Of a stretch of 35,191 nt of DNA, positions 14,254 to 32,180 are shown in pieces. Every line of letters starts with the position of its first letter. The stretch's first letter is position 1. The notes under the pieces are model-generated. The model searched no databases. It saw only the letters and a program-made list of their open reading frames with translations, and had not been told where the DNA came from. The stretch is from an uncultured Erysipelotrichaceae bacterium. Lineage in GTDB: Bacteria; Bacillota_I; Bacilli_A; RF39; UBA660. The DNA is taken from contig CACZTI010000062.1 in assembly GCA_902783985.1 (NCBI GenBank), forward strand, positions 1 through 35,191, given 5' to 3'. The position numbers and the translations under genes are program-made.

Positions 14254-14329
14254 TGGTGGAGCATAGCGGGATCGAACCGCTGACCTTCACGGTGCAAACG
14301 TGACGCTCTCCCAGCTGAGCTAATGCCCC
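14254..14329 (-). tRNA. tRNA-Ala (anticodon TGC)
   Basis: Minus-strand cloverleaf of 76 bases with encoded CCA. Acceptor GGGGCAT pairs with ATGCTCC (one G-T wobble), the D arm is GCTCAGCTGGGAGAGC, the anticodon stem TCACG/CGTGA encloses loop TTTGCAC giving anticodon TGC, and the T arm carries GGTTCGATCC. It stands alone, with its own terminator, and points away from the two structured RNAs. Confidence 0.97.
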
Positions 14330-14459: not shown

Positions 14460-14488
14460 TTGCATTTTTTAAAAAAATAGCATATACT
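14460..14488 (+). promoter_or_regulatory. Promoter of structured RNA A
   Basis: TTGCAT (14460-14465), 17 bases, TATACT (14483-14488). The predicted start, near 14495, is the first base of stem P1. Confidence 0.7.
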
Positions 14489-14494
14489 AATAAT

Positions 14495-14930
14495 GTCTTG
14501 ATAATAATAAGTACCAAGAATAGTTTATTCTACTTAATGTTTTTTTAGATTCTTTGATTAGAATCTTGTAGTTCATTTATTGAACTACTGGAATATCTTT
14601 ATGATATTCTTACGGTATAATGTTTAACCGTTTTGTTTGTAGTCCTTTGTTGACTATTTGCTATTTTATATAGCTGTACCTTTTATAGGTACTGTAGATA
14701 AATTATTGTTTATTAAGTACTTGTTGGTAAGAAAAACTACTTTTGTGTAGTAATTATCGCCTCAAGACAAGACAATTGTTTGTGAGAGAGAAAACTCAAA
14801 TGATAAGATGTTGTGGTAAATACTGATAATATTTATTTTAGGTTATACATTAACTGTCGATGTTAGTGTTAACTGTTACAACTTTTTCTAAACTCGGAAT
14901 GATATTCTTTATCAGAGGATGTCATTTTTT
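14495..14930 (+). ncRNA. Structured RNA A: kissing-loop RNA with seven-hairpin inserted domain
   Basis: About 436 bases with no coding frame. P1: GTCTTG (14495-14500) with CAAGAC (14763-14768). P2: AAGTAC (14509-14514) with GTACTT (14717-14722), enclosing seven hairpins in a row: arms 14547-14553/14560-14566, 14568-14574/14582-14588, 14591-14597/14603-14609, 14612-14616/14627-14631, 14640-14644/14652-14656, 14660-14664/14670-14674, 14676-14681/14687-14692. Then GGTAAGAAA (14726), hairpin ACTAC/GTAGT, TTATCGCC (14754), P1', CAATTGTTT, AAATGATAA (14798). A three-way junction follows: GTTGT (14810-14814) with ACAAC (14878-14882), enclosing TAAATA/TATTTA with loop CTGATAA (14823-14829), and TTAAC/GTTAA. 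The terminator hairpin at 14899-14925 has loop TTATCAG (14909-14915), exact complement of CTGATAA. RNA B repeats the plan with changed but still pairing stems. I do not recognise it as RNase P, tmRNA, 6S, SRP or a known riboswitch. Confidence 0.8.
14899..14930 (+). terminator. Terminator hairpin of RNA A with kissing loop
   Basis: Ten-pair stem ATGATATTCT/AGGATGTCAT (two G-T pairs), loop TTATCAG, then six T. Confidence 0.85.
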
Positions 14931-14945
14931 GTTTGCTTTTTTATC

Positions 14946-14974
14946 TTGAAATTATTTTTGTTTCATGATACAAT
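14946..14974 (+). promoter_or_regulatory. Promoter of structured RNA B
   Basis: TTGAAA (14946-14951), 17 bases, TACAAT (14969-14974). The predicted start, near 14981, is the first base of stem P1 of RNA B, as in RNA A. Confidence 0.75.
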
Positions 14975-14980
14975 GTAATT

Positions 14981-15230
14981 ACTTAGTATAGTAAAGGCGA
15001 ATAAATAATTACAATTTAATGGACTCTATAATTATTTGTTCTCTCTTTATGGGGTAAGAAAGAATTTTTATCAGCCACTAAGTGCAACAATTGTTTTGAG
15101 AGAAGATACTCTAAATGATAATCTCTAGCATAAATACTGATAATATTTATGATTCTACTTAAAATGTAGATTCTAGATTTTCTCTAAACTTGGAATTGGT
15201 ATTCATTATCAGTGAATATTGATTTTTTTT
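14981..15230 (+). ncRNA. Structured RNA B: second member of the kissing-loop RNA pair
   Basis: About 250 bases, same order of parts as RNA A. P1: ACTTAGT (14981-14987) with ACTAAGT (15077-15083). P2: TAAAG (14992-14996) with CTTTA (15045-15049), here enclosing one long hairpin (15000-15011 with 15029-15040, one G-T) in place of the seven-hairpin array. Then, 3 bases after P2' as in A, GGTAAGAAA (15053), TTATCAGCC (15068), P1', CAATTGTTT, GAG/CTC hairpin, AAATGATAA (15113). Junction stem TCTAG (15124-15128) with CTAGA (15173-15177) encloses TAAATA/TATTTA with loop CTGATAA (15137-15143), and TCTAC/GTAGA. Then CTAAACTTGGAAT and the terminator with loop TTATCAG (15206-15212). Stems differ from A but stay paired. 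It ends about 40 bases before the LtaS-like gene, which has its own promoter, so it is more likely a free RNA than a leader. Confidence 0.8.
15194..15230 (+). terminator. Terminator hairpin of RNA B with kissing loop
   Basis: AATTGGTATTCA pairs with TGAATATTGATT (with G-T wobbles) around loop TTATCAG, followed by a T-run. Confidence 0.85.
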
Positions 15231-15247
15231 TATATTGATAGTATAAT
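15219..15247 (+). promoter_or_regulatory. Promoter of the LtaS-like gene
   Basis: TTGATT (15219-15224), 17 bases, TATAAT (15242-15247). The -35 lies inside the 3' arm of the RNA B terminator, so the two may compete. Confidence 0.65.
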
Positions 15248-32047: not shown

Positions 32048-32180
32048 TGTGTGTTTTAGTGCATTGATGTGTGAGGTTGCTGATACGCCAGGAAGAGTTG
32101 CTAAATAAAAATTGGAGTATCGGGTTATTCACACGGAGCATGCCTATACCAGATATAGACGAAAGGAGTGAAAACACAAA
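32048..32180 (+). promoter_or_regulatory. Structured leader of the S10 operon
   Basis: About 130 G+C-richer bases between promoter and rpsJ. GTGTGA (32069-32074) pairs with TCACAC (32129-32134); inside it TGATAC (32081-32086) pairs with GTATCG (32117-32122, one wobble); a further hairpin CTATA/TATAG follows near 32143-32160. This is where an autogenous r-protein leader is expected; which protein binds cannot be told. Confidence 0.7.

Follow-up and report, generated by a model that had tools for sequence, protein, structure and literature searches.

The window (the whole stretch of 35,191 nucleotides analysed here) carries two tandem structured RNAs on its forward strand, C1 at 14494..14930 (~436 nt) and C2 at 14980..15230 (~250 nt). 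A tRNA-Ala (TGC) gene on the reverse strand (14254-14329) lies directly upstream of the pair. Elsewhere in the window, an S10-Clostridia ribosomal leader (32056-32162, forward strand) was detected 5′ of a 102-aa ORF at 35.6 bits, barely over the cut-off. The initial annotation had placed the two RNAs within these limits; all of the stems and conserved blocks it named were located in the sequence, and the absence of a protein frame was upheld. It had also assigned a promoter and a terminator to each copy. The C2 promoter, TTGAAA-17-TACAAT (14946..14974), scored 10 of 12 in a consensus scan, and that of C1, TTGCAT-17-TATACT (14460..14488, with the -10 box at 14483-14488), was read in the sequence but fell below the threshold of the scan. 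Each RNA ends in a hairpin with a UUAUCAG loop followed by a U-run (14901..14930 and 15199..15232); the terminator scan is GC-based, and both of these AU-rich hairpins were missed by it. TATAAT-like boxes occur immediately 5′ of the P1 stem in relatives, in which promoters and terminators both recur at matching positions. C1 and C2 are apparently transcribed independently of each other.

P1 is formed in cis by TGTCTTGA (14494-14501) and TCAAGACA (14762-14769) in C1, and by TACTTAGT (14980-14987) and ACTAAGTG (15077-15084) in C2. P2 was found as AAGTAC/GTACTT (14509-14514/14717-14722) in C1, which includes a large multi-hairpin variable domain, and as TAAAG/CTTTA (14992-14996/15045-15049) in C2. 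The 5′ and 3′ strands of P4 are ATTATCG (14753..14759) and UGAUAAGA (14801..14808) in C1, and UUUUAUCA (15066..15073) and UGAUAAU (15116..15122) in C2. As judged by RNAduplex, the best partners of the two C1 strands are the C2 3′ strand (15116-15122) and the C2 5′ strand (15066-15073), respectively. Between the P4 strands lie a palindromic dimer segment, D (ACAAUUGU at 14772..14779 in C1, AACAAUUGUU at 15086..15095 in C2), and the P5 hairpin (14783..14798 and 15097..15112), which in C1 has a conserved, purine-rich loop. The P6 junction, GUUGU/ACAAC in C1 (14810..14882; strands GTTGT 14810-14814 and ACAAC 14878-14882) and UCUAG/CUAGA in C2 (15124..15177; strands TCTAG 15124-15128 and CTAGA 15173-15177), surrounds the P7 hairpin and a variable hairpin, P8. 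P7 (14817..14835 and 15130..15150) carries the 7-nt loop CUGAUAA in both copies, and a second junction hairpin was found as TTAAC/GTTAA (14850-14854/14868-14872) and TCTAC/GTAGA (15154-15158/15166-15170). The fold of C1 has a z-score of -6.7, with 0/100 shuffles as good, and that of C2 is weaker at -2.6, with 2/200 shuffles as good.

The initial annotation had taken the pair for a new RNA family and had named a match to an existing Rfam family as grounds against this. The comparison with Rfam models that it had suggested refuted the claim, as the core of both copies is RF03040, "PGK RNA": the covariance model scored 70.3 bits in C1 (14745..14836) and 62.5 bits in C2 (15060..15150), with a gathering cut-off of 50.8. 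A third match in the same genome (C99, 28 bits) is below the cut-off and was discarded as chance. The pair was unmatched by 6S RNA (RF00013), for which a separate gene was found in this genome at G000 C45:18473-18658 (57.7 bits), and neither the window nor the sampled loci matched the covariance models of OLE, ROOL and GOLLD. PGK RNA, probably first described in a 2017 Weinberg/Breaker motif survey, is already known as a sequence family, though a poorly described one. The Rfam model has 92 bases, is typed Cis-reg, and spans the core alone; the whole RNA is free-standing, measures ~250-440 bases, and has a promoter and an AU-rich terminator hairpin of its own. P4, P5, P7 and the conserved loops of this 92-nt core are present in both copies, whereas the full RNA of 250-440 nt adds P1, the variable domain, the P6 junction and a terminator predicted to kiss P7, and its palindrome is absent from the Rfam model.

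Matches to RF03040 were found in 57/288 genomes of the order, and matches to our own model R1 in 48/241. Each of the five genomes sampled from the window's genus has two copies. Six of the 296 genomes in a class-wide draw matched, all from the window's own family. A pattern scan of named genomes identified 86 loci; among the matches listed, the records come from uncultured bacteria and are for the most part metagenome assemblies, with labels such as Bacilli, Erysipelotrichaceae and Tenericutes. As viral contigs, phages and plasmids gave no PGK RNA match, a phage, plasmid or mobile-element RNA was dropped as a candidate.

Across ~45 relatives the parts follow a common order, namely the -10 box, P1 5′ strand, variable domain, P4 5′ strand, P1 3′ strand, D and P5 in the 5′ half, and the P4 3′ strand, P6 enclosing P7 and a variable hairpin, a AAACUCGGAA-like strand and the terminator hairpin in the 3′ half. 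The purine-rich P5 loop, the 7-nt CUGAUAA loop of P7 and the UUAUCAG loop of the terminator are shared. The covariation that had been read from the two copies of the window was borne out in homologues for P1 and P6. P1, usually just 3′ of the -10 box, covaries in cis through many versions (TACTTAGT/ACTAAGTA, TGTCTTGA/TCAAGACA, CCTAGAG/CTCTAGG, TGTCTAATA/TATTAGACA, ACTTAATAGA/TCTATTAAGT and ATCTCGGT/GCCGAGAT). Cognate P6 strands pair in cis at -7.0 kcal/mol as compared with -4.2 kcal/mol when permuted (102 members, 0/5000 as good). The P7 and terminator loops also covary, in that 5/5 members whose P7 loop has CUGACA show UGUCAG in that of the terminator. RNAalifold recovered P5 alone from A1 and A2, a result that an intermolecular P4 in some of the members would predict. 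In one PGK RNA (G155:C8, locus L099), the variable domain includes three imperfect tandem GAGTAG..ATTTGGAAA blocks, and hence this domain can grow by repeats. At a further locus (L051 4866-5321, G072:C50), a TnpB/Cas12f-like fragment with IS605 HTH and TNB domains lies directly 3′ of a PGK RNA.

Given the Rfam type and the phosphoglycerate kinase gene that is next on the same strand at the best-scoring locus (G041), PGK RNA could be read as a cis-regulatory leader that folds within its own transcript and controls the gene downstream. However, each copy is terminated by a hairpin and U-run of its own, a convergent gene follows the RNA in G140, G047 and G164, and the neighbours vary, including SpoIVA, HU, EF-P, Ffh, TGT, topoisomerase/PFL-like, peptidase U32, rubrerythrin and others. 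In the window, a gene for a sulfatase-domain, LtaS-like protein occupies the downstream position rather than pgk. Among the sampled loci pgk is downstream at G041 only, and this adjacency may plausibly have given the family its name; unlike what RF03040 implies, there is no general association with pgk. Moreover, the paired copies described below show no pairing of P4 in cis. On gene context, control in cis of pgk or of whichever gene follows was rejected, and a leader of this kind is very improbable.

D, the segment before P5, is ACAAUUGU in most members, and at least ten central hexamers occur in it (CAATTG, CGATCG, GCGCGC, GAATTC, CACGTG, CATATG, TGATCA, TGTACA, ATATAT and TATATA). Among the 92 members having both the P7 and terminator loops, D includes a palindrome of at least 6 in 86 and of at least 8 in 74, as compared with a palindrome of 8 in 11% of shuffled D segments. 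D is palindromic in 3/19 members without the terminator loop. A palindrome of 12-16 nt is able to fold as an ordinary hairpin, and in single-copy members cognate P4 strands are complementary in cis (-8.3 versus -6.3 permuted), though cis and trans P4 of homodimers are indistinguishable by sequence. P4 might then form in cis, with P1 and P4 as a pseudoknot of one molecule and any complementarity between copies as a side effect of duplication. A hairpin, however, needs no self-complementary inner four bases, yet the loop would be AAUU, GAUC, ACGU, AUAU or GUAC, and this variety points to pairing between two molecules. Three genomes (G140, G056 and G061) each carry two copies whose palindromes are incompatible with one another, and these copies are classed, from their pairing potential, as insulated homodimers.

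Most members in which D is not palindromic lie near a second, homologous copy, the D of which is complementary over 8-13 nt. In these loci, the two copies of which are designated A and B, P4 is swapped, such that the 5′ strand of B pairs with the 3′ strand of A and the reverse, with differing sequences. Examples are CTTATCATT/AATGATAAG and TCGCTA/TAGCGA at locus L134, and CTTACCAT/ATGGTAAG and GTCCATCGT/ACGATGGAC in G068. A copies keep the CUGAUAA loop and have a plain terminator or none, and B copies are without this loop and have a UUUAUCAG hairpin with the UUAUCAG loop. In the genus designated g28, models R1 and R2 found A in 30/39 genomes and B in 26/39, giving 29 adjacent pairs. B-type copies were confined to g28 in an order-wide search (5/385 genomes), and at the putative heterodimer loci that were sampled both A and B score below the RF03040 cut-off. 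A search for a partner copy of G032, G158 and a few A copies found none.

Further features were observed at individual A/B loci. B copies in L134, L154 and L097 have a conserved CGGCTAA..CTGTCAATG-like stretch 3′ of the P4 3′ strand. In G288:C11 (L253), the D segments of A and B (ATTACAAT and ATTGTAAT) are strand-swapped relative to other pairs, which indicates an exchange of two complementary sequences. L10 ribosomal leaders lie ~1-2 kb upstream in L154, L134, L097 and L132. The g28 RNAs are often found 3′ of a gene whose C-terminus reads as L7/L12, and the A/B locus of g28 seems to follow the rplJ-rplL operon.

Complementarity between partners was evaluated using RNAduplex energies for 28 of the 29 A/B pairs (one B anchor was not located) and 10,000 re-pairings, a permutation that models phylogeny incompletely. 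Cognate energies were -9.8 for D, -9.3 for P4 A5:B3 and -9.2 for P4 B5:A3, as compared with -6.8, -5.7 and -6.4 when permuted, with 0/10,000 as good in each case. No signal was detected for P4 in cis in the same A/B pairs, as 3802/10,000 permutations were as good for A and 9347/10,000 for B. With 10 sequence clusters, all three intermolecular helices remained at 0/20,000 and both cis controls were at chance. Cross P4 was better than cis P4 in 28/30 pairs. In G416 and G413 cis P4 outscores cross P4, and in some pairs the B segments are strongly self-complementary too.

A blind-alignment scan of all A-B column pairs ranked P4 B5:A3 first (0.424) and D second (0.344), both above the permutation maximum of 0.323 (40 permutations). 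P4 A5:B3 was seventh because the region is badly aligned, and a stack of poly-U with GGAGAA came third, exactly at the permutation maximum, and was rejected as an artefact. In five genomes with two A/B pairs, a copy's own partner (-24 to -33) was always favoured over the other partner (-8 to -20). Complementarity of cognate partners thus exceeds both non-cognate and within-copy complementarity in genus g28, and also in G069. At the level of sequence, co-evolved complementarity between the copies, without a cis P4 signal, is shown for the A/B pairs, and P4, which Rfam draws inside one RNA, is predicted to pair between molecules in them.

These pairs also bear on the ordinary hairpin considered above, since D and most P4 helices of A and B fail to form in cis, whereas their trans combinations are complementary, with species-specific sequences, and the strand-swapped D of G288_C11 is trans-complementary as well. 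Folding of D and P4 within one molecule is accordingly thought highly unlikely. Trans complementarity, and one locus type in which the copies are convergent, would equally suit a sense/antisense arrangement, with A and B as regulators, one inhibiting the other, instead of subunits of one structure. However, A and B are homologues whose three complementary blocks are collinear and occupy corresponding places in the structure, and in the single-copy form these blocks recur as a palindrome; a dimer accounts for this more readily than an inhibitor does. A regulator and its target appear very improbable.

A tandem A and B could alternatively be one transcript forming an intramolecular pseudo-dimer. 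In the short-spacing class (179-199 nt between copies; e.g. G288_C1 and G416), neither a terminator nor a promoter was seen between the copies, and these may be fused single-chain dimers. In contrast, a terminator and a promoter resembling TTGACA/TATAAT separate the copies of long-spacing pairs, and both C1 and C2 come with a promoter and terminator of their own. In L124, L126, L167 and L116 the partners are on opposite strands, with P4 and D matching across, and must therefore be separate transcripts. The copies of G069 lie on separate contigs, with D energies of -7.6 and -5.8 for self-pairing and -17.5 for the cross. A single transcript is therefore unlikely in general, and probably holds for the short-spacing class only, as a fused dimer.

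For the window pair, RNAduplex energies of P4 were -3.4 (C1) and -5.0 kcal/mol (C2) in cis, and -7.9 and -6.3 kcal/mol across the copies. D gave -15.4 kcal/mol for C1:C2, -13.6 for C1:C1 and -9.4 for C2:C2, and the RNAcofold binding terms of the cores were -9.9, -5.2 and -4.8, respectively. The summed cross P4 beats cis P4 in five of the five genomes of the genus, and D alone favours the C2 homodimer in G003. C1 and C2 both retain both loops and a palindromic D. These predicted energies are suggestive of an early or symmetric heterodimer, with a modest cross preference; as D is palindromic in both copies and the preference is modest, C1 and C2 homodimers are possible in this genus.

Taken together, each copy is very probably a free-standing, trans-acting non-coding RNA that works within a dimer, and this dimer would be physical and stable in the cell. 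P1 would close inside each molecule, and the P4-5′/P1-3′/D/P5/P4-3′ stretch of one RNA would run antiparallel to its counterpart in a second RNA, giving three consecutive collinear intermolecular helices, P4, D and P4′. Two junctions would separate these helices, with P1 branching off from one strand there and P5 from the other. The P7 loop CUGAUAA would kiss the terminator loop UUAUCAG, presumably in trans, a contact that rests on few changes and could be cis in homodimers. In single-copy genomes D is palindromic and the dimer would be symmetric; two-copy genomes would form either two insulated homodimers or a diverged A/B heterodimer, with the P7 loop retained by A and the UUAUCAG loop by B. 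C1 and C2 would represent a tandem, early-heterodimer type, in which self-pairing is possible and C1:C2 is predicted to be best. Pairing of the cores between molecules, which the initial annotation had missed, also offers a reason for the tandem arrangement of two copies. It is likely that a symmetric homodimer gave rise, after gene duplication, to dedicated heterodimers forming orthogonal pairs within one cell, as separate transcripts and, in some cases, apparently as fused single-chain dimers. Tentatively, the dimer might serve as an RNA scaffold or assembly platform.

OLE, ROOL and GOLLD are bacterial RNA-only homo-oligomers, some with symmetric kissing loops, and have conserved intermolecular contacts (PMC12286853). 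PGK RNA resembles them as a bacterial non-coding RNA with putative oligomer contacts, as read from complementarity and predicted energies, but differs in that its putative interface consists of strand-swapped helices and a palindrome; the terms "heterodimer" and "hetero-oligomer" are absent from that paper (PMC12286853). Natural functional RNA oligomers are rated as rare in a review, whose examples are chiefly viral RNAs, mRNAs, ribozymes and riboswitches that form homo-oligomers (PMC7357161), and the best of the recent examples are homo-oligomers too (PMC12286853). Retroviral dimer initiation sites, phi29 pRNA and other RNA dimers (PMC7357161) share palindromic or complementary intermolecular pairing, whereas in PGK RNA paralogous chromosomal genes would have diverged into dedicated partners, with orthogonal pairs per genome. 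No natural paralogous RNA heterodimers were found by title or abstract in a search of non-subscription papers, and a natural homodimer/heterodimer RNA system of the PGK type appears to be new. Hence, the sequence family and the principle of RNA oligomers are known, and the predicted strand-swapped, palindromic-to-heterodimeric mode with orthogonal pairs appears new.

The database label, cis-regulatory and tied to one gene, would be corrected to that of a trans-acting RNA commonly found in a single order of uncultured Bacilli from the gut. The intermolecular contacts are readable from sequence because the two partners differ in sequence, and many genomes would record the divergence, insulation and rewiring of an RNA-RNA interface. 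If this is true, PGK RNA heterodimers would be the RNA counterpart of paralogous protein subunits.
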